Positions 37,033-64,000 of a stretch of 64,000 nt of DNA are shown piece after piece. Below the pieces are notes generated by a model that did not search any database, had not been told where the DNA came from, and was given only the letters and a program-made list of their open reading frames with translations. The DNA comes from Auricularia sp. M13 (lineage: Eukaryota; Basidiomycota; Agaricomycetes; Auriculariales; Auriculariaceae). The stretch lies in assembly GCA_037042915.1 (NCBI GenBank), contig CM073193.1:3844001-3908000 (forward strand). Reading direction: 5' to 3'. The first letter of the stretch is position 1. Each line of letters begins with the position of its first letter. Both the position numbers and the translations under genes were made by a program.

Positions 37033-38412
37033 TTAGTTGATGCCATTGAGTTTCCTTCCAGCATCAATGGCCTGGCCCTTGTCAACCCAGTCAAGGAGAA
37101 CATGTGTGACCTTGATGTTGTCCCCGATGGTTTGACAGGTGTTGACCTGACCCGAGATCGAGTCTACAGAGTTGGTCTCGTCCGCGGCGCCGCGGTCAGG
37201 TATCAGAATCTGCAAGAAAACCGTTAGCAGGAGGCAGAAAAGTAACGATGGATCATACTCCGAAGAGGTCGATGTCGAGGAAGTGGTTCTGCGTCTGTGA
37301 GATTCAATCGCACACAATCAATTAGGGCGCACCATCATCCCCAGCTTGTTCTCAGCGCCGCCATTAACACGGTCAACAGCGCATGGCCAGCTCTTGTCGA
37401 CCTCATTGTCTGAGAACCGAGTTAACGAGCTATAAATTTGGCCGCAGCTGCCTGGATACTCACAGTGGGTCTCCCACATCTGTGGAAAATTGAGCACGAA
37501 TGAAACCCGATCGGAAATCATTGCAGCTCACGTTGTCGAATTCGGGAAGAATATAGGGGACAACCGACGTGTCAGCATTGTAGTCCTGCGAAGGCCGTGA
37601 GGATTGAGCTAAGAGACTTGGAAGTCAAGACACACCATGAGCACCACGACGCGGGTATTGGCAGAGATGAGGTCCGCCATCTTTGGCCAGGCATCGCGAG
37701 CCACTGGAGAGGATGAGGGCGTGAAGACAAATTGCTCGAGGCCAGAGGCCTTGAAAATCTCCGCCCACTTCGCCACTTCGACATTGTCATTGTTCGTTAC
37801 GACGAGCGTGAGGACTAGAGGGAGCGAGTCAACTTCATGTTATGCCACTGGGTATTAAATTTGACCTTCGTTCCTATTCGCGTCGTCTGACAGCCAGTTG
37901 GAGATGGTGCGGAAGTAGTCTTCAAGGGAACCACCATCGTAAAGAGCCTACAGAAGTTCAACGCTTGGACAAGATAGGTCATAGAAGGGGCATACGCAGT
38001 CAGTGTGGCAGACATGGAGCACGTCGTCCTTGAGATGTGTCTGAGCCTGGAGCAGACGAACTCCCATGTTCAATTGAGAGGGAATATCAATATTCTGGTT
38101 CGATGCAATGGCGGAGACTACGAAAAAGGAGGTGAGGATTGCGAGTGAGAGGCTGCCTGTTGACTTTACGCACGACCGCCATTGTCGACAGCGTAAGAGT
38201 CGTGTGCTCCTATGAAAACGACATCGCCGAAGGACTTGTCACAGAGACTCGGGTGACCATTGCAAGACAGAGCGTCGTCGCGTAGAAGTGAAGCGAGAGG
38301 GTAGAAAATTGGCGCCGACGAAGACGACGAGGAAGAGGCGAAAGAGGCGCACCGCAGTCGTCAGACTGACAGCAAGAGAAGCAACCGCCAGAAGGCGACC
38401 GAACGAAGACAT
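37033..38412 (-). CDS. Secreted PLC-like phosphodiesterase (PI-PLC X-domain type)
   Basis: Ten exons, 301 aa. Exon 1 (38353-38412) is a signal peptide (MSSFGRLLAVASLAVSLTTA). Then CNGHPSLCDKSFGDVVFIGAHDSYAV carries the first catalytic His, DVLHVCHTDC the second, and LYDGGSLEDYFRTI, DYNADTSVVPYILPEFDN and HVLLDWVDKGQAIDA are family landmarks. Introns include 38118-38173, 37948-37995, 37815-37865, 37586-37635, 37480-37531, 37410-37463, 37295-37332 and 37210-37258. Exon 7 (37464-37479) is 16 nt. The first intron begins with a good GT donor at 38352 but has no AG where exon 2 must begin (38276). Family members act on phosphoinositide-like substrates; activity here is inferred. Confidence 0.9.
38280..38340 (-). 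repeat. Intron-like direct repeat, copy A (inside intron 1 of the PLC-like gene)
   Basis: About 61 bp nearly identical to 38442-38505. On the minus strand it is pyrimidine-rich and fills most of intron 1, ending CTACGC where copy B ends CTACGCAG. Confidence 0.85.
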
Positions 38413-38441: not shown

Positions 38442-38505
38442 GCGTAGAAGTGAAGGCGAGAGGGCAGAAAATAATGGCGCCGACGAAGACGACGAGGAAG
38501 AGGCG
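38442..38505 (-). repeat. Intron-like direct repeat, copy B (upstream of the PLC-like gene)
   Basis: About 64 bp matching copy A with a few mismatches and 1-3 nt indels. On the minus strand it ends in a perfect acceptor, CTACGCAG, 30 bp before the start codon, so it could be a 5'-UTR intron. Confidence 0.85.
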
Positions 38506-52777: not shown

Positions 52778-54288
52778 ATGTCAGCCCTGAACGCCGGTGA
52801 TTCTGAGCTCGTCTTCGAGTCCTCAGAGGCAGTCCAGGTGCGGAGCGCGAGCGTATCACGCGGAGGGCGGGTCTCTGACACGGGTCCAGGTCGTCTCAAC
52901 CTTCGACGACCTCAACCTGAAAGAGGACCTCCTCCGCGGCATCTATGCCTATAGTGCGTGTCTCTGCCGCCGCCCAGCGCGTCTGCCAGCTGCTAACGCA
53001 CGCGCAACAAGACTTTGAAAAGCCTTCAGCCATCCAGCAGCGCGCCATTCTGCCCATTATTCAGGGCCGCGATGTTGATTGCGCAGGCCCAGTCGGGCAC
53101 GGGCAAGACGGCGACGTTCTCGATATCCATCCTGCAGAGCATCGACACCTCGCTGCGCGACACCCAGGCGCTGGTGCTGTCGCCGACGCGCGAGCTCGCA
53201 ACGCAGATTCAGTCCGTCGTGCTCGCGCTGGGCGACTACATGAACGTCCAGTGCCATGCGTGCATCGGCGGCACCTCCATCGGCGAGGACATCCGCAAGC
53301 TCGACTACGGCCAGCACGTCGTCTCCGGCACGCCCGGCCGCGTGTTCGACATGATCCGCCGCCGCAACCTGCGCACCCGCAACATCAAGCTGCTCGTGCT
53401 CGACGAGGCCGACGAGCTGCTCAACAAGGGCTTCAAGGACCAGATTTACGACGTCTACAGGTATCTCCCGCCCGCCACCCAGGTTGTCATCCTCAGCGCG
53501 ACGCTCCCCTTCGACGTGCTCGAGATGACAACCAAATTTATGAGCGACCCCATCCGCATCCTCGTCAAGCGTGACGAATTGACGCTCGAAGGCATCAAGC
53601 AGTTCTTCGTGGCTGTCGAGAAGGAGGACTGGAAATTCGACACGCTGACCGACCTCTACGACACCTTGACCATCACGCAGGCTGTCATCTTTTGCAACAC
53701 AAGACGCAAGGCAAGATTCCCGATTTTGACAGTGTTTGCTTCGCTTCATGTGATCCCACCTAGGTCGATTGGTTAACGGAAAAGATGCGCGCCGCCAACT
53801 TCACGGTCTCATCCATGCATGGAGAGATGCCGCAAAAGGAGCGCGACGCAATCATGCAGGAGTTCCGCAGCGGGACGAGGTATGTTCACAGTTTCCTTGT
53901 GGCCGCAATGTCACCCATTCGTACTGTAGCCGTGTTCTCATTACGACCGATGTCTGGGCGCGCGGCATCGACGTCCAACAAGTATCGCTAGTCATCAACT
54001 ACGATTTGCCCTCGTAAGTGCCAGTGCTTTTTCTTTTTCTTTTTTTGCTTATTGAATGGCATTCGTTCAGGAATCGTGAAAACTACATCCACCGTATTGG
54101 TCGGTCTGGGCGCTTTGGACGCAAGGGCGTCGCGATCAACGTGCGTGTCTTATAAAGTTTGTATGACTATGCTCATGCTTCAATTACAGTTCGTCACGGT
54201 GGAGGACGTCCGCATCTTGCGCGATATTGAGCAATTCTACAGCACTCAAATCGATGAAATGCCTGTCAACGCTGCCGAGCTCATCTAA
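52778..54288 (+). CDS. FAL1: eIF4A3/FAL1-type DEAD-box RNA helicase (with one apparent frame break)
   Basis: Seven exons, about 396 aa. Introns 52838-52889, 52954-53011, 53711-53763 (GC donor), 53880-53929, 54014-54070 and 54141-54189. Helicase motifs in order: Q motif [34 protein letters not shown] in [22 protein letters not shown] and [13 protein letters not shown]; the ending is [10 protein letters not shown]. Role: exon-junction-complex/rRNA-processing helicase. At about 53,072-53,076 the frame shifts by one (GATGTTGATTGCG where GRDVIAQ expects GATGTGATTGCG); exon 3 is one base too long. The rest is intact, so a base-call error or recent mutation is likely. The tandem duplication starts inside intron 53711-53763. 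Confidence 0.94.
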
Positions 54289-54435
54289 CCGCCTTAACGT
54301 GCGCTGCGCAGTCGTCCAGGTCGTTCTCATTCTCGTCTGTAATTGCTGTAACGTATAAAGCACATGCACCCAAATCTATTCGCTTCCGCGGAAAACGACC
54401 ATATATCTGAACATACGATAGCAAAAATAAGAGCC

Positions 54436-54981
54436 TCAATCCTCAGCTAGATGTTTTTGCCAAAACGACACGCTGATATAGCGATCGAATTTGTATCCCA
54501 CGTCCTTCAGCTTTCCGACGCATTCAAAACCTTCCCTCGTGTAGAACTTGTCGACACCGCGCCCCAGCCCAACATTGTCCTCGGCAACGACCGCGATAAC
54601 CTCGCGCACGGGCGGATCGCGTTTGCATTTGCGTAGGTCATTGAGCAGGCGCGCCATGAGCATCTTGCCAAGGCCACCGCGTATTGTGTCCGAACGGACG
54701 TAGATCGAGATTTCGACAGTATGCGCATACGCTATGCGCTCGGAGCGGTACTGTGCGGCGTATGCGTAGCCGAGCACGGAGCGGTCGTTGCTGGAGATGA
54801 CGACGACATAGGGCAGGTTCTCCGCGCGCACGGCCTCGAAGCGCCGCGCGAGCTGCTCGCGCGGCGGCGCTTTCGTCTCGAACGTCGCCGCGCTCTTGTT
54901 GCAGTAGAATGCGTAGATGGACGCGATCTCGTCCAGGTCCTCCTCGCGCGCCTCGCGCACTATCGCACCGAGGCCGGACAT
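54436..54981 (-). CDS. GNAT-family N-acetyltransferase, phosphinothricin-acetyltransferase-like (copy 1)
   Basis: Single exon, 181 aa from ATG 54981 (MSGLGAIVREA). Pattern of PAT/bar-type GNATs: VREAREEDLDEIASIYAFY at the start, TFETKAPPREQLARRFEAV, VVVISSNDRSVLGYAYA, then the acetyl-CoA loop RGGLGKMLMARLL and a final YTREGFECVGKLKDVGYKFDR. Single exon and PAT-like resemblance are unusual among the intron-rich neighbours, but codon use looks native. Substrate unknown (amino-acid-like or xenobiotic amine). Its protein is identical in copy 2. Start 54981 preferred over 55068 because family members begin at this position. Confidence 0.87.
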   Translation of the reverse strand: MSGLGAIVREAREEDLDEIASIYAFYCNKSAATFETKAPPREQLARRFEAVRAENLPYVVVISSNDRSVLGYAYAAQYRSERIAYAHTVEISIYVRSDTIRGGLGKMLMARLLNDLRKCKRDPPVREVIAVVAEDNVGLGRGVDKFYTREGFECVGKLKDVGYKFDRYISVSFWQKHLAED

Positions 54982-56129
54982 TGCAGCGCGCTGGAGGGAG
55001 GGATGGCGCACGATGAGATGGCGAGCGGCGAGATGATCGATTCGATGGGCGAATTCCGGATTGGGCACGTGCCGCTGTGGAGAGGCCCAAATAAATAGTC
55101 CGCAATTGGGATCAGATCTGCGGAGGCAGGTAATACCTGCGAATGCGCTGGGGTGGACGGCATTGCAGACAAAAGCGTTCCTGAAGATGCGATATTAGCG
55201 AGATGATGAACTGGATTCCCAGGAGGTTGTCAGGCTGGCCGCGAACAGCAGCTATTGTCCGGCCTGGGGACCATGCGACAGAAAAACATAGGCGAGAGGC
55301 GCAACGGAGCAGATGTATTCGGAGAGATGCAGGACGACACCGTAGCCTCCCATGATCCATGAGGTGCGAGCGATACATCCGTTGGGTTGCCAATCGCAGA
55401 ATCCGTCCATTGTCATAAAGTAAATCAATCGACGGCATTGCGAACTGATGTAGTCACCTGGGGAATACCGAGATGAAAATGTACCATGGCCGAGATAGTG
55501 GTGAATCATTGTCGGCGGGGTTGTTTGAGCGCAGAAAGAGCCGCCCAAAACCTGACTGCAGCGAATCCAGGTTGACAAACGGCACATGGGCAGGCCAAAA
55601 TGCAGAGATTCAGTGAGATATCTCCGAGAGTACGAGGTAGACGGGGGACGAGGGAATAATTGCTGTCGCGAGCACGGACCAAGATGCTGCATGAAGTCCT
55701 CGAGCTTCCGGCAGAGAAATCTCAGTCGTCGCTGAGCGTGCAAGACAGGACCTTGCTTTTATCAGTTCCGCTGCATGGCAATCCGGCGCCGACGAGGACA
55801 TGTGCGCGTCGAAGCATTGTCGCGGTGGAAGTCGGACACTATAGCACCCAAAACACAGGCTATACCGTTGCTAAAAGAATGTCCAGAGTCCGGAGGTAGT
55901 ATACGCAACAGATACACTTCCGTTGCACTTGGTGTTGTAGGACAAGGGCAATGGAAAGGTTCGAACGCGCGGACGGTTGACTCGCACGGTCAAGCGGGGA
56001 CGGAGGCAACGGCGCTGACAGGTTTTGAACGCCGCAAAACGCGTCTTGCTCCCGAACGACGCACCGCTGCCGCTGTAGGCTTGTGCCCGGTGCCTCCAGC
56101 TTTTACGTCGGCCTTACAGTTGTGCGAAC
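54982..56129. other. Intergenic region between GNAT and SF3A3 (copy 1), with a weak candidate ORF
   Basis: 1.15 kb, the most diverged part of the duplicated unit. A 163-codon minus-strand frame (55252-55743) reads WQPNGCIARTSWIMGGYG and hydrophobic stretches, but uses no known domain and shows three amino-acid changes between copies. I leave it as an open question. Confidence 0.35.
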
Positions 56130-57956
56130 ATGGACTCTGTGTTCGAAATCCAGCGTCAGACGCACGAGGAAGTTGAGCGCCTCCAACGCGCTCTTTCCAC
56201 CGTCCTCTCGCACACGTACCCAACCCAGCAGGCCCACATTGCCAACCAGCACAAAGCCAGTCAGCTGTTGGAGCGCATTTCCAACCGCGTGTATGAGCTT
56301 AATACCTCATACAATGACGACGCAGCGAGGAAAGCTGAACTTGACGCGCTGTCCGCGCCGACCAATCTTCAGCCTGGCGCCGATGACCTAGCCGAGTTCT
56401 ACACGAGGTTGGGGAGACTCAGGGAGCACCACTTGAAGTACCCTGATACCGTAGTAGGAGCCTTCGAAACCGAGCTTGCAGCACTCGTTGACGAGCCGCT
56501 TGAAGGGGAATATGAAGATGAAGATCGTCCGTCGTCCATGTCGTGTTGCTTTTCGATCCCAACTGACGCGCTTCCTTTCCCCTCGCAGCTTTATCCGTCA
56601 TGTTCTCCGGTGAAGAGGCGTACGGCCGTTATCTCGACCTTTACAGCCATCATACCGCGTACAACAACTTGAAGAACATTCGTCGAACGACGTACATGCA
56701 CTACCTCGGCGCCTTGATGAACGTTTCGAATCAACCAGTACACTCTGAACTGTCCATGGAGACCCGATTAACCAAGGAATACGAGTCGTACGTAGCGCTC
56801 ATTCATTCATGGGTCGCATTATACTCACATATCCTTCAGATACCTTCAGAACTTGCATACATATCTGCTGTCCTTCACAAAGCGTACACGACCGTTGACG
56901 GATGTCGACAAAGAGCAACTCGTCGCCGAAGCCGAGTTTGCTGCCTTGTGGGATGCGGGCCAGACCGGAGATTGGCAAAAGTCCTCCAGTTCAGGTGCCG
57001 CGAACGGCAATGGTCAGACAGGCATCTGGTGTTCAGCCTGTAAGTCGATTGTTGTTGTTTGTGGTAGGCCCGATCCTGATCAAAAGAAAACAGGCAAGAA
57101 GTCCTACTCGAAACAAACTGTGTATGATGCGCATCTCACCTCGAACAAGCACCAGAAAGCGGCCGCCAAGGCCGAGGCGGCTGCCGCCACGAACGGTGAA
57201 TCTGGAGGCGCAACAGCCAACGGAGGCAACTTCAACAACAGCGCACAAGAATCCAAGAACCGACGACTTGCGCGCTTGACACATCTCGTCACGGCGCTCC
57301 TGCAGCCGCTGGTCAACACTTTGGGGGAGACGAAGTCAAATGTCGAACGACGTTTTGCGTTAACCGCTCGGGAACGTGAGCAGGAGTTGCTGGATGCACC
57401 AACGGCTGCTGCAACGGCACAAGGCGGTGACGAGCCGCCTGCCGCGGAAGAGGAACAGGAGGAGGAGAAAATCTACAACCCCCTCAAGCTGCCGCTCGGA
57501 TGGGACGGCAAACCCATTCCCTACTGGCTCTATAAGCTGCATGGCCTCGGGGTGGAGTACCGCTGTGAAATTTGCTCCGATCACGTTTACATGGGCCGGT
57601 ATGTTCACTTCTTACCGAGTATCATTACTTCTCGCTTACCCCCTCTCGTTACCTTAGGAAAAATTTTGAGCGTCATTTCCAGGAGTCTCGCCACGCGTTT
57701 GGTATGCGGGCACTTGGGCTGCCGAACACGAAGCATTTCCACGAGATTACTCGCATCGAAGATGCACTTGCATGTGCGTCGCCCTGACACCCATTTATTT
57801 ACCTGCTGACTTGTTTCAGTGGCCGAGCGACTGAAGCAGGAGGGTCGCCAGGAAGTCGTGCAAAATGAGACCACTGAAGAGCTTGAAGATGAGGATGGCA
57901 ATGTCTACAACCGCAAGACATATGACGATCTTAAAAAGCAGGGTATCATTCGGTAG
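56130..57956 (+). CDS. SF3A3: Splicing factor 3A subunit 3 (SF3a60 / Prp9), copy 1
   Basis: Six exons, 517 aa; introns 56527-56588, 56788-56839, 57040-57093, 57599-57657 and 57774-57819. Landmarks: MDSVFEIQRQTHEEVERLQ, FSGEEAYGRYLDLYSHH, the C2H2-like WCSAC ... SKQTVYDAHLTSNKH zinc finger, PLGWDGKPIPYWLYKLHGLG, YRCEICSD and FERHFQESRHAFGM. U2 snRNP component that helps form the prespliceosome. Intron 57040-57093 is 54 nt and free of in-frame stops, so its retention would simply add 18 residues inside the zinc finger. Confidence 0.96.
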
Positions 57957-58227
57957 CCGAAGCATGGTAACTCCTTCGTGTTATGCTGTTTGTAAGATAT
58001 GTCTGCGAAAGATATATAGTAGTCATTGGCCTGTGCTAAGGTGTCGGACTCGATGGCTGGCAACGAGCAGGGAGGCTGAACGGCAACTTGCGCCGGTCGA
58101 TCCGGCTTAGACTTGTGGCTTGCTACGTACGAGCCACACCGCGACCTGCACGCGACGTTGGGACACAGCCTGCTGTGAGCCGTGTCCGCTCCCATCACAG
58201 GCGCATTGAAGTGTAGCGCCGCAAGCG
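57957..58227. promoter_or_regulatory. Spacer SF3A3 to PROPPIN (copy 1)
   Basis: 271 bp, serving as 3' flank of SF3A3 and promoter of the PROPPIN. No motif recognised. Repeated at 63364-63634. Confidence 0.45.
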
Positions 58228-59162
58228 ATGCACCTTGCTCGGCACTCGATCACCAGCACCCAGCCCATCCAGGTATCCGACGCGCGCTTCGACGCCGACC
58301 ACCGTATCTTTACATGCGCGACACCCAATGGCTTTGCGGTCTACCAGACATATCCACTCAGACTCCTGCGCAAGCACGGTATGCACTGGCATCGTCGCTG
58401 GGATTGGCACAATAGATTGACCTGTTGTCGCAGAGCTGACGGACGCCACTCTTGCCATGGTATTGCCCATGCACTCGAGCTCTCTGCTATTCCTGCTCGG
58501 TGGAGGCACTATGCCACTGTACCCGCCCAACAAGGTCGTACTGTGGGACGAGTCTCTCAGCAAGGCTGTCGCAGAGCTCGAGTTCAGGGAGAAGGTGCGC
58601 GGCATGGCCGCTCGCAGGGGCTGGCTGGCCGTCGCGCTCCGACGGCGAGTCGTTGTATTCGAGGTTGGCGAGCAGATCAGGCGACACGCAGAATATGAGA
58701 CCAATGAGAACCTGCGGGGTGCGTTGTGTTGCTCGTCATCGTACAATAGCATGCTGACACCGTCCGGACCAGGCCTCGTTGCAATGGCTACTGCTACAAA
58801 TGCGACGCTCTTAGCGATACCCGGACGGCAGATGGGACATGTACAGCTGGTGCATCTGCCCCCTTGTCCCCCGCCCAAGCTGTCTACCCCAACCGCGCAC
58901 CCTCCACCTTTACCAGCTGCGCCGCCGTCCAAACACCCGACATCAATCATCATTGCTCATGAGACAGCGTTATCTACAATCGCTGTGACACCGAGCGGGC
59001 GGTTACTCCACTACTTCGGCGCGAGGGACACTGGTACGCGTGTGGGACGCGCACACAGGCAATCCCATCGACGCCTTCCGCCGCGGAAGCGACCAGGCGG
59101 AGATATACGCTGTAGCATTCAGACCTGACGAGAAGGGACAGTGTTTGCTTCGCTTCATGTGA
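58228..59162 (+). pseudogene. PROPPIN (WIPI/ATG18/HSV2-like), copy 1, truncated by the duplication junction
   Basis: Exons 58228-58378, 58434-58718 and 58773 onward. The beta-propeller begins MHLARHSITSTQPIQVSDARFDADHRIF and includes FREKVRGMAARRGWLAV and HETALSTIAVTPSGRLL. The next expected part (TTSARGTLVRVWD, then the phosphoinositide-binding FRRG in DAFRRGSDQAEIYAV) is in another frame: near 59,008 two bases seem to be missing. At 59137 the sequence passes into eIF4A3 intron DNA; reading on from the FRRG frame adds QCLLRFM and stops at 59160-59162. The last propeller blades are absent. Intact PROPPINs bind PI3P/PI(3,5)P2 in autophagy; this copy should not. Confidence 0.88.
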
Positions 59163-59173
59163 TCACCACCTAG

Positions 59174-59695
59174 GTCGATTGGTTAACGGAAAAGATGCGC
59201 GCCGCCAACTTCACGGTCTCATCCATGCATGGAGAGATGCCGCAAAAGGAGCGCGACGCAATTATGCAGGAGTTCCGCAGCGGAACGAGGTGTGTTCACA
59301 GTTTCCTTGTAGCCGCAATGTCACCCATTCGTACTGTAGCCGTGTTCTCATTACGACCGATGTCTGGGCGCGCGGCATCGACGTCCAACAAGTATCGCTA
59401 GTCATCAACTACGATTTGCCCTCGTAAGTGCCAGTGCTTTTTCTTTTTCTTTTTTTGCTTATTGAATGGCATTCGTTCAGGAATCGTGAAAACTACATCC
59501 ACCATTGGTCGGTCTGGGCGCTTTGGACGCAAGGGCGTCGCGATCAACGTGCGTGTCTTATAAAGTTTGTATGACTATGCTCATGCTTCAATACAGTTCG
59601 TCACGGTGGAGGACGTCCGTATCTTGCGCGATATTGAGCAATTCTACAGCACTCAAATCGATGAAATGCCTGTCAACGCTGCCGAGCTCATCTAA
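59174..59695 (+). pseudogene. eIF4A3/FAL1 3' fragment (copy 2)
   Basis: Matches exons 4-7 of the helicase at 53764-54288 but lacks the first half, including the ATPase motifs I to III. It also lacks two bases in the [11 protein letters not shown] exon (CACCATTGG for CACCGTATTGG, near 59,503), so even the fragment is out of frame. It follows the truncated PROPPIN directly and has no promoter of its own. Confidence 0.93.
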
Positions 59696-59842
59696 CCGCC
59701 TTAACGTGCGCTGCGCAGTCGTCCAGGTCGTTCTCATTCTCGTCTGTAATTGCTGTAACGTATAAAGCACATGCACCCAAATCTATTCGCTTCCGCGGAA
59801 AACGACCATATATCTGAACATACGATAGCAAAAATAAGAGCC

Positions 59843-60388
59843 TCAATCCTCAGCTAGATGTTTTTGCCAAAACGACACGCTGATATAGCGATCGAATTTG
59901 TATCCCACGTCCTTCAGCTTTCCGACGCATTCAAAACCTTCCCTCGTGTAGAACTTGTCGACGCCGCGCCCCAGCCCAACATTGTCCTCGGCAACGACCG
60001 CGATGACCTCGCGCACGGGCGGATCGCGTTTGCATTTGCGTAGGTCATTGAGCAGGCGCGCCATGAGCATCTTGCCAAGGCCACCGCGTATTGTGTCCGA
60101 ACGGACGTAGATGGAGATTTCGACAGTATGCGCATACGCTATGCGCTCGGAGCGGTATTGTGCGGCGTATGCGTAGCCGAGCACGGAGCGGTCGTTGCTG
60201 GAGATGACGACGACATAGGGCAGGTTCTCCGCGCGCACGGCCTCGAAGCGCCGCGCGAGCTGCTCGCGCGGCGGCGCTTTCGTCTCGAACGTCGCCGCGC
60301 TCTTGTTGCAGTAGAATGCGTAGATGGACGCGATCTCGTCCAGGTCCTCCTCGCGCGCCTCGCGCACTATCGCACCGAGGCCGGACAT
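59843..60388 (-). CDS. GNAT-family N-acetyltransferase, phosphinothricin-acetyltransferase-like (copy 2)
   Basis: Second copy of the gene at 54436-54981. The 181-aa protein is identical although several bases differ, so the changes are synonymous. Both copies have intact upstream flanks and could both be expressed. Confidence 0.87.
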   Translation of the reverse strand: MSGLGAIVREAREEDLDEIASIYAFYCNKSAATFETKAPPREQLARRFEAVRAENLPYVVVISSNDRSVLGYAYAAQYRSERIAYAHTVEISIYVRSDTIRGGLGKMLMARLLNDLRKCKRDPPVREVIAVVAEDNVGLGRGVDKFYTREGFECVGKLKDVGYKFDRYISVSFWQKHLAED

Positions 60389-61536
60389 TGCAGCGCGCTG
60401 GAGGGAGGGATGGCGCACGATGAGATGGCGAGCGGCGAGATGATCGATTCGATGGGCGAATTCCGGATTGGGCACGTGCCGCTGTGGAGAGGCCCAAATA
60501 AATAGTCCGCAATTGGGATCAGATCTGCGGAGGCAGGTAATACCTGCGAATGCGCTGGGGTGGACGGCATTGCAGACAAAAGCGTTCCTGAAGATGCGAT
60601 ATTAGCGAGATGATGAACTGGATTCCCAGGAGGTTGTCAGGCTGGCCGCGAACAGCAGCTATTGTCCGGCCTGGGGACCATGCGACAGAAAAACATAGGC
60701 GAGAGGCGCAACGGAGCAGATGTATTCGGAGAGATGCAGGACGACACCGTAGCCTCCCATGATCCATGAGGTGCGAGCGATACATCCGTTGGGTTGCCAA
60801 TCGCAGAATCCGTCCATTGTCATAAAGTAAATCAATCGACGGCATTGCGAACTGATGTAGTCACCTGGGGAATACCGAGATGAAAATGTACCATGGCCGA
60901 GATAGTGGTGAATCATTGTCGGCGGGGTTGTTTGAGCGCAGAAAGAGCCGCCCAAAACCTGACTGCAGCGAAGCCAGGTTGACAAACGGCACATGGGCAG
61001 GCCAAAATGCAGAGCTTCAGTGAGATATCTCCGAGAGCACGAGGTAGACGGGGGACGAGGGAATAATTGCTGTCGCGAGCACGGACCAAGATGCTGCATG
61101 AAGTCCTCGAGCTTCCGGCAGAGAAATCTCAGTCGTCGCTGAGCGTGCAAGACAGGACCTTGCTTTTATCAGTTCCGCTGCATGGCAATCCGGCGCCGAC
61201 GAGGACATGTGCGCGTCGAAGCATTGTCGCGGTGGAAGTCGGACACTATAGCACCCAAAACACAGGCTATACCGTTGCTAAAAGAATGTCCAGAGTCCGG
61301 AGGTAGTATGCGCAACAGATACACTTCCGTTGCACTTGGTGTTGTAGGGCAAGGGCAATGGAAAGGTTCGAACGCGCGGACGGTTGACTCGCACTGTCAA
61401 GCGGGGACGGAGGCAACGGCGCTGAAAGGTTTTGAACGCCGCAAAACGCGTCTTGCTCCCGAACGACGCACCGCTGCCGCTGTAGGCTTGTGCCCGGTGC
61501 CTCCAGCTTTTACGTCGGCCTTACAGTTGTGCGAAC
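60389..61536. other. Intergenic region between GNAT and SF3A3 (copy 2)
   Basis: Counterpart of 54982-56129 with about ten base differences. The 163-codon minus frame at 60659-61150 stays open. Confidence 0.4.
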
Positions 61537-63363
61537 ATGGACTCTGTGTTCGAAATCCAGCGTCAGACGCACGAGGAAGTTGAGCGCCTCCAACGCGCTC
61601 TTTCCACCGTCCTCTCGCACACGTACCCAACCCAGCAGGCCCACATTGCCAACCAGCACAAAGCCAGTCAGCTGTTGGAGCGCATTTCCAACCGCGTGTA
61701 TGAGCTTAATACCTCATACAATGACGACGCAGCGAGGAAAGCTGAACTTGACGCGCTGTCCGCGCCGACCAATCTTCAGCCTGGCGCCGATGACCTAGCC
61801 GAGTTCTACACGAGGTTGGGGAGACTCAGGGAGCACCACTTGAAGTACCCTGATACCGTAGTAGGAGCCTTCGAAACCGAGCTTGCAGCACTCGTTGACG
61901 AGCCGCTTGAAGGGGAATATGAAGATGAAGATCGTCCGTCGTCCATGTCGTGTTGCTTTTCGATCCCAACTGACGCGCTTCCTTTCCCCTCGCAGCTTTA
62001 TCCGTCATGTTCTCCGGTGAAGAGGCGTACGGCCGTTATCTCGACCTTTACAGCCATCATACCGCGTACAACAACTTGAAGAACATTCGTCGAACGACGT
62101 ACATGCACTACCTCGGCGCCTTGATGACCGTTTCGAATCAACCAGTACACTCTGAACTGTCCATGGAGACCCGATTAACCAAGGAATACGAGTCGTACGT
62201 AGCGCTCATTCATTCATGGGTCGCATTATACTCACATATCCTTCAGATACCTTCAGAACTTGCATACATATCTGCTGTCCTTCACAAAGCGTACACGACC
62301 GTTGACGGATGTCGACAAAGAGCAACTCGTCGCCGAAGCCGAGTTTGCTGCCTTGTGGGATGCGGGCCAGACCGGAGATTGGCAAAAGTCCTCCAGTTCA
62401 GGTGCCGCGAACGGCAATGGTCAGACAGGCATCTGGTGTTCAGCCTGTAAGTCGATTGTTGTTGTTTGTGGTAGGCCCGATCCTGATCAAAAGAAAACAG
62501 GCAAGAAGTCCTACTCGAAACAAACTGTGTATGATGCGCATCTCACCTCGAACAAGCACCAGAAAGCGGCCGCCAAGGCCGAGGCGGCTGCCGCCACGAA
62601 CGGTGAATCTGGAGGCGCAACAGCCAACGGAGGCAACTTCAACAACAGCGCACAAGAATCCAAGAACCGACGACTTGCGCGCTTGACACATCTCGTCACG
62701 GCGCTCCTGCAGCCGCTGGTCAACACTTTGGGGGAGACGAAGTCAAATGTCGAACGACGTTTTGCGTTAACCGCTCGGGAACGTGAGCAGGAGTTGCTGG
62801 ATGCACCAACGGCTGCTGCAACGGCACAAGGCGGTGACGAGCCGCCTGCCGCGGAAGAGGAACAGGAGGAGGAGAAAATCTACAACCCCCTCAAGCTGCC
62901 GCTCGGATGGGACGGCAAACCCATTCCCTACTGGCTCTATAAGCTGCATGGCCTCGGGGTGGAGTACCGCTGTGAAATTTGCTCCGATCACGTTTACATG
63001 GGCCGGTATGTTCACTTCTTACCGAGTATCATTACTTCTCGCTTACCCCCTCTCGTTACCTTAGGAAAAATTTTGAGCGTCATTTCCAGGAGTCTCGCCA
63101 CGCGTTTGGTATGCGGGCACTTGGGCTGCCGAACACGAAGCATTTCCACGAGATTACTCGCATCGAAGATGCACTTGCATGTGCGTCGCCCTGACACCCA
63201 TTTATTTACCTGCTGACTTGTTTCAGTGGCCGAGCGACTGAAGCAGGAGGGTCGCCAGGAAGTCGTGCAAAATGAGACCACTGAAGAGCTTGAAGATGAG
63301 GATGGCAATGTCTACAACCGCAAGACATATGACGATCTTAAAAAGCAGGGTATCATTCGGTAG
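61537..63363 (+). CDS. SF3A3: Splicing factor 3A subunit 3 (SF3a60 / Prp9), copy 2
   Basis: Same six-exon structure as copy 1, shifted by 5,407 bp, and 517 aa. One amino-acid difference was seen: ALMTVSNQ here, ALMNVSNQ in copy 1. All splice sites are kept. A duplicated, apparently intact gene for a stoichiometric U2 snRNP subunit. Confidence 0.95.
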
Positions 63364-63634
63364 CCGAAGCATGGTAACTCCTTCGTGTTATGCTGTTTGT
63401 AAGATATGTCTGCGAAAGATATATAGTAGTCATTGGCCTGTGCTAAGGTGTCGGACTCGATGGCTGGCAACGAGCAGGGAGGCTGAACGGCAACTTGCGC
63501 CGGTCGATCCGGCTTAGACTTGTGGCTTGCTACGTACGAGCCACACCGCGACCTGCACGCGACGTTGGGACACAGCCTGCTGTGAGCCGTGTCCGCTCCC
63601 ATCACAGGCGCATTGAAGTGTAGCGCCGCAAGCG
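63364..63634. promoter_or_regulatory. Spacer SF3A3 to PROPPIN (copy 2)
   Basis: Copy of 57957-58227 with no difference noticed. Confidence 0.45.
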
Positions 63635-64000
63635 ATGCACCTTGCTCGGCACTCGATCACCAGCACCCAGCCCATCCAGGTATCCGACGCGCGCTTCGAC
63701 GCCGACCACCGTATCTTTACATGCGCGACACCCAATGGCTTTGCGGTCTACCAGACATATCCACTCAGACTCCTGCGCAAGCACGGTATGCACTGGCATC
63801 GTCGCTGGGATTGGCACAATAGATTGACCTGTTGTCGCAGAGCTGACGGACGCCACTCTTGCCATGGTATTGCCCATGCACTCGAGCTCTCTGCTATTCC
63901 TGCTCGGTGGAGGCACTATGCCACTGTACCCGCCCAACAAGGTCGTACTGTGGGACGAGTCTCTCAGCAAGGCTGTCGCAGAGCTCGAGTTCAGGGAGAA
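63635..64000 (+). CDS. PROPPIN (WIPI/ATG18/HSV2-like), copy 2, 5' part
   Basis: Same start and first intron (63786-63840) as copy 1. It runs off the window end at the codons for FREK. Because copy 1 is cut at the junction, this one is the likely complete gene, assuming the right end of unit 2 matches the ancestral locus. Confidence 0.85.
   Translation, partial: MHLARHSITSTQPIQVSDARFDADHRIFTCATPNGFAVYQTYPLRLLRKHGMHWHRRWDWHNRLTCCRRADGRHSCHGIAHALELSAIPARWRHYATVPAQQGRTVGRVSQQGCRRARVQGE

Follow-up and report, generated by a model that had tools for sequence, protein, structure and literature searches.

Layout of the locus

The right-hand part of the 64,000-nucleotide stretch analysed here (the window, C1:3844001–3908000, on contig CM073193.1 of Auricularia sp. 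M13, whose assembly comprises 52.1 Mb in 14 contigs, designated here by C and a number) carries a direct head-to-tail repeat that involves the genes for eIF4A3, a GNAT-family acetyltransferase, the SF3a subunit SF3A3 and a protein that we take to be a PROPPIN. Its introns are short and, like the genes present, look fungal. Sequence past the end of the window was added from the neighbouring stretches, and the resulting 80 kb were compared with themselves by BLAST. The two units, 53728–59136 and 59137–64545 in window numbering, are each 5,409 bp long, show 99.50% identity over 5,412 columns, differ by 21 mismatches and four gap openings (counted as indel events) and abut with zero bases between them. 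Within the window only, the alignment pairs 53728–58593 with 59137–64000. The sole other repeat in the 80 kb at an E-value of 1e-5 is a direct pair at 38280–38340 and 38442–38505 (64 columns, 94%), so the 5.4-kb repeat is not there by chance. At megablast sensitivity, the 280 kb that run continuously from the window start hold no further repeat of at least 80 bp besides the unit. They also contain no N, the seam included, and thus no scaffold gap. In a search of the genome, the first kilobase of the unit matches its two copies and, over 84 bp at 79% identity, a site on C4 beside an eIF4A-like gene.

The features of the repeat and its left flank are, from left to right in window numbering:

52778–54288, plus strand: eIF4A3 (DDX48-like), left copy; seven-exon model, exons 1–3 placed by eye and not translated as one
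53711–53763, plus strand: GC-AG intron of eIF4A3, 53 bp, defined by the sequence, the located exon ends and the continuous 3′ reading frame
53728–59136, unstranded: first repeat unit (unit 1), 5,409 bp, 99.50% identical to unit 2 in the BLAST self-comparison
54436–55068, minus strand: GNAT-family acetyltransferase (Acetyltransf_4), copy 1; Pfam PF13420, E 3.1e-14
56130–57956, plus strand: SF3A3 (SF3a60/Prp9), copy 1; PF12108 and PF11931 on pieces, SF3A3 and Prp9 chains
58228–59128, plus strand: 5′ part of the PROPPIN gene in unit 1; 281 aa where the full protein has 489, FRRG motif absent
59136/59137, unstranded: unit junction, blunt, 0 bp in common with either outer flank, no N
59137–64000, unstranded: in-window part of unit 2; its true end, 64545 in window numbering (C1:3908545), lies beyond the window
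59137–59695, plus strand: eIF4A3 3′ fragment of unit 2, with the frame of unit 1 as reference
59843–60475, minus strand: GNAT, copy 2; protein identical to that of copy 1, four synonymous differences
61537–63363, plus strand: SF3A3, copy 2; one substitution relative to copy 1
63635–64000, plus strand: beginning of the intact PROPPIN gene in unit 2; three exons, coding to ~65.2 kb on the window scale, protein of 489 aa that includes FRRG

The first-pass annotation of this stretch had claimed a 5.4-kb tandem duplication that begins in an intron of eIF4A3 and ends inside the PROPPIN gene. As an observation on the sequence this is exact: the layout, the genes, the break positions and the junction at 59137 had all been read correctly, and the two ends agree with the gene models (the intron at 53711–53763 and the second PROPPIN exon).

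Genes in the two units

The left copy of eIF4A3, which the same annotation had called complete, is broken as assembled. It carries one extra base at 53077, a +1 frameshift between the sequences GRDV and IAQAQSG. The site (53071–53083, or C1:3897071–3897083) lies in unique sequence, 651 bp to the left of the repeat. The frame at 52945–53571 matches DEAD-box chains through GRDV, and the frame at 53015–53773 matches human eIF4A3 chains from IAQ on (E 2.7e-121). Since these two stretches are contiguous in the solved protein, there is no room for an intron at 53077. No second eIF4A3 is found among the 24 rows of a search for DEAD-box relatives, the next best being a 73% match on C4. A base error in the consensus at 53077 seems likelier than a genome without an intact eIF4A3. 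The eIF4A3 fragment of unit 2 has a 2-bp (GT) deletion at 59503, which shifts the frame in the HRIGRSGR motif, 1-bp intronic indels at 59165 and 59591, and three synonymous substitutions.

At the other end of the unit, the PROPPIN piece of unit 1 lacks a TG at 59007, and the resulting frameshift leads to a stop codon at 59126–59128, 8 bp before the junction. The intact gene belongs to unit 2. It had been presumed complete, and on the extended sequence it does encode 489 residues in three exons. The PROPPIN label and the assignment of the FRRG motif are presumptive. The hybrid of PROPPIN and eIF4A3 that had been placed at the junction does not exist as a protein on this model. A fusion is ruled out, as the PROPPIN frame ends at 59126–59128, before the seam, and no open frame runs across it.

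The genes in the middle of the unit had been described as two intact copies each. This holds for GNAT, both copies of which are intact and encode identical proteins. SF3A3 is likewise present twice, and a search of the genome finds it at exactly two places, one per unit. The SF3A3 copies, for which the exon model is partial, differ by no indel and by a single substitution at 56721/62128, which in the open frame turns N into T. A 2.6-kb span over SF3A3 holds just this one difference between the units (scan P ~0.00015).

Seam and break points

The left break (53728) lies inside the eIF4A3 intron and the right break inside the second coding exon of the PROPPIN gene. The letters at the seam are ...GAGAAGG/GACAG, those of the left flank ...GATTTT and those of the right flank agctg. 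GAGAAGG, which precedes the seam, shares nothing with the GATTTT of the left flank, and GACAG, which follows it, shares nothing with the agctg of the right flank. Microhomology or a simple repeat at the breaks was looked for and amounts to 0 bp at the seam and at both outer flanks. There is also no homologous repeat at the two break points, given 0 bp at the seam and the absence of any repeat of at least 80 bp other than the unit in the 280 kb. The bluntness of the seam disfavours both repeat-mediated unequal crossing-over and slippage at microhomology, while end joining is still a possible way to make it. An exact search for the telomere repeat, (TTAGGG)x4, gave no match on either strand of the whole genome and is uninformative on the seam.

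Differences between the units

The substitutions between the units look evolved. Fourteen of the 21 are transitions, unlike what random errors would produce. Within the exons of the truncated pieces, i.e. the 3′ part of eIF4A3 in unit 2 and the 5′ part of PROPPIN in unit 1, six of seven substitutions are synonymous. Neutrality would make ~71% of them non-synonymous, and the probability of at most one in seven is then 0.003 (0.004 with a stronger transition bias). All four substitutions in GNAT are synonymous as well, and the single one in SF3A3 is non-synonymous if its stretch is exon. Had both units come from one template, the eIF4A3 and PROPPIN pieces would never have functioned, and changes in them should ignore the code. 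Most of the substitutions thus seem to date from a time when both versions worked as genes, and the units look like two alleles, the numbers being small. Allele-like units fit two models, one in which an assembler joined two haplotypes and one in which a real exchange took place between diverged homologues.

The indels are distributed differently. All four lie within ~460 bp of the unit ends and all are in truncated parts. The two that break a frame are at 59007, 130 bp to the left of the seam, and at 59503, 366 bp to its right, with the changed unit judged in each case by the intact counterpart. The two intronic 1-bp indels (53755/59165 and 54184/59591) are 28 and 454 bp from a unit start and may be changes in either unit. 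By length alone, the placement of four out of four indels in truncated parts has a probability of 0.0055; set against the substitutions, nine of 21 of which fall in truncated parts, the excess is not significant (Fisher P = 0.096). We had considered the frameshifts in the truncated pieces as proof of a real, decaying duplication and gave this up, as base errors at the ends of joined pieces would fall there too. By geometry, the ~0.5 kb on either side of the seam consist entirely of truncated pieces. What tilts the indel evidence toward base error is the extra base at 53077, which sits in a stretch of eIF4A3 that is not doubled.

Paired loci elsewhere in the assembly

Near-equal pairs of loci occur elsewhere in the assembly. 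They emerged from searches for relatives of the DEAD-box protein (24 rows), protein kinases (147 rows), a chaperonin (36 rows) and an M3 peptidase (6 of 20 rows). Kinase rows were paired, in a script recount of all 147, if their profile ranges were equal within two positions and their scores within 1.0 bit. This gave 12 row pairs, of which two were set aside; the remaining ten represent eight gene pairs. Both of the discarded pairs, C1:3546167/C1:3594788 and C8:3701325/C5:1569917, are likely due to chance, since their open frames differ (164 versus 629 aa and 417 versus 280 aa, respectively). The pair C12:368979/C9:545879 was retained despite frames of 384 and 753 aa because both genes have a second row, and these rows form a pair as well. 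Two of the eight gene pairs are on C5 (2.696/3.200 and 2.724/3.228 Mb, in direct order), three connect C12 with C9, and the rest lie in opposite orientation within C1, C8 and C11.

The chaperonin gene and the M3 peptidase gene are also paired between C12 and C9. By coordinates, profile ranges and bit scores, the five gene pairs of these two contigs are without exception inverted and keep their order perfectly, with C12 positions 0.099, 0.104, 0.240, 0.369 and 0.889 Mb corresponding to C9 positions 0.837, 0.832, 0.677, 0.546 and 0.270 Mb. The two chaperonin copies are 2.2 and 4.2 bits apart in the compared rows, and their open frames are divided up differently. On these coordinates, ranges and scores, C12 looks like one arm of C9 in its other haplotype.

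The DNA-level comparison of paired regions covers the helicase region of C5. Two of the 24 DEAD-box rows are twins on this contig, 624 kb apart, and the 10 kb read at each align at 98.4% over 4,556 columns. In a realignment of 4.5 kb, there are 43 substitutions (34 of them transitions) and three indels, and a 504-aa helicase frame is open in both copies with one residue different. Sequence further to the left is likewise common to the two copies and keeps its order, interrupted by other insertions in one copy or the other. Like the SF3A3 region, this pair contains a span of low difference by the same measure, 1.2 kb long and at a higher density of differences. Together with the kinases there are three gene pairs on C5, in which sampled loci over 2.70–3.11 Mb recur in direct order at 3.20–3.73 Mb. 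The arrangement is as if two haplotypes had been placed one after the other, and it would also allow for large insertions or another history.

Origin of the repeat

Taken together, these data make the 5.4-kb repeat a probable false heterotype duplication, i.e. an artefact of the assembly in which two haplotypes were joined and their 5.4-kb overlap was kept twice. The isolate would be heterozygous and probably dikaryotic, with a haplotype in each of its two kinds of nuclei. Haplotype A would end at 59136 and the assembly continue in haplotype B from 59137, with the shared 5.4 kb left unremoved. The two units would then represent a single-copy region in its two allelic forms, and the indels close to the seam would reflect a consensus of low quality where the joined pieces end. 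This reading is favoured by the blunt seam, the allele-like substitutions, the indels near the unit ends, the frameshift in the nearby part of eIF4A3 and the near-identical second versions of some other regions. We infer that those other doubled regions are haplotypes too, that their source is a dikaryon, that assembly software made the join and that base errors account for the indels. Haplotypes can have identical blocks in common, as the span over SF3A3 would be. The first-pass annotation had preferred a real event, an unequal exchange or a replication slip with a change in gene dosage. That preference is disfavoured by the lack of microhomology, the allele-like character of the substitutions, the seam-side indels and the apparent second versions of regions elsewhere, and it is the rival named there, two haplotypes joined in the assembly, that we now favour.

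Several observations weigh against an artefact. The seam and the surrounding 280 kb are free of N, and these 280 kb hold no other doubled stretch. According to PMC9516828, false duplications show a sequence gap or a depth gap between the copies and true ones do not, and the true duplications without a gap described there include an allele-specific tandem duplication within one contig. The frame-breaking 2-bp indels sit in the two truncated fragments and leave the counterparts intact, which decay after a duplication predicts as well. The near-identity of the 2.6 kb over SF3A3 could come from gene conversion between real tandem copies. Furthermore, two of the four kinase rows at C5 3.19–3.74 Mb (3530782 and 3626563) have no partner at 2.69–3.11 Mb, and the other paired regions may be real segmental duplications. 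The unpaired C5 kinases and the true tandem duplications described without a gap in PMC9516828 make an artefact slightly less likely and an exchange slightly more so.

The exchange in question is a real tandem duplication by unequal, non-homologous exchange between diverged homologous chromosomes, e.g. in the meiosis of a dikaryon, after which the truncated ends acquired their frameshifts. We regard it as unlikely, yet as an alternative to be reckoned with. It accounts for allele-like substitutions combined with frameshifts confined to the two truncated fragments, for a seam without N and for a layout that is just the product of one exchange. Its costs are that the exchange would have to be end-joined at unrelated sites, that the extra base in single-copy eIF4A3 would have no explanation and that the second versions of other regions would become a coincidence or further duplications. 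If such an end-joined duplication between haplotypes did occur, which we hold to be unlikely, the copies would have been ~0.4% different at birth, an SF3a subunit and an acetyltransferase would be doubled, the flanking pieces would be decaying and SF3A3 would be kept uniform by gene conversion. The age of the duplication could then not be read from the divergence, because the copies were different alleles from the start. Far less probable is a duplication from one template, by replication slippage or sister-chromatid exchange, with all differences arising later. The perfect head-to-tail order and the high identity would suit it, but six of seven substitutions are synonymous in fragments that could at no time have worked as genes, and the seam lacks the microhomology seen at the yeast chimeric-frame junctions given in PMC2518615. 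Sequencing error alone, in which error-rich reads of the same haplotype were assembled as a second copy (a homotype doubling), is hardly credible: it would place indels near unit ends, as observed, but 21 substitutions with a 2:1 excess of transitions and a synonymous bias are evolved differences.

Comparison with known systems

False duplications of adjacent alleles have been described in assemblies (PMC9516828; PMC2864568), and the published cases include a gene doubled next to itself (PMC9516828). The locus on C1 resembles the heterotype class, as outlined in these sources, in its near-identical copies side by side on one contig, in differences that look allelic and in the gene pieces at the seam. 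It differs in having no N gap, and that class is defined by depth, k-mers and read pairs, whereas the likeness here is drawn from assembled sequence. In the assembly of a dikaryotic fungus, phase switches at haplotig boundaries and collapsed regions are described (PMC8957140), and haplotype duplications are addressed in a Laccaria study (PMC10995626). The parallel with the phase switches of PMC8957140 is that two nuclear haplotypes would be present in one assembly, with C12/C9 and parts of C5 looking unmerged; unlike those, the switch on C1 would retain a 5.4-kb overlap twice inside one contig, and the dikaryon itself is deduced.

Among mechanisms of real duplication, unequal crossing-over between repeats (non-allelic homologous recombination) is generally known to give the same head-to-tail geometry, but here there is no repeat at the break points. 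Segmental duplications in yeast that arise by replication, through break-induced replication or microhomology/microsatellite-induced replication, are similar in being direct and intrachromosomal and in having a gene–gene junction. Their junctions, in the data cited from PMC2518615, carry homology, microhomology or trinucleotide repeats, and the 13 chimeric reading frames identified there among 26 sequenced breakpoints all have microhomology or trinucleotide repeats where their parts meet; the seam on C1 has none of these.

If the repeat is an artefact, the assembly seems to retain both haplotypes in places, namely at C12/C9, in parts of C5 and at the 5.4-kb repeat. Before this assembly is used to count genes or to identify ‘recent duplications’, depth should be checked, and the 5.4-kb repeat should not be counted as extra gene copies before confirmation in the raw reads.

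Minor observations on the paired regions

A weak M3-peptidase pair, C9:366375 (50.6 bits) and C12:522761 (27.4 bits), fits the order of the C12/C9 pairs and was not counted among them. On C12 there is no row that pairs with the kinase row at C9:546731. The inverted kinase pairs of near-equal score on the remaining contigs, known by their scores and coordinates, are C1:979250/4662069, C8:1601548/1650915 and C11:408295/2057913. One of the two C5 copies contains an additional segment of 5.4 kb (C5:3100060–3105440) with relatives of 69–97% identity on C1, C3, C7, C8, C11 and C12. Because its relatives are spread over several other contigs, this segment looks like a mobile element.

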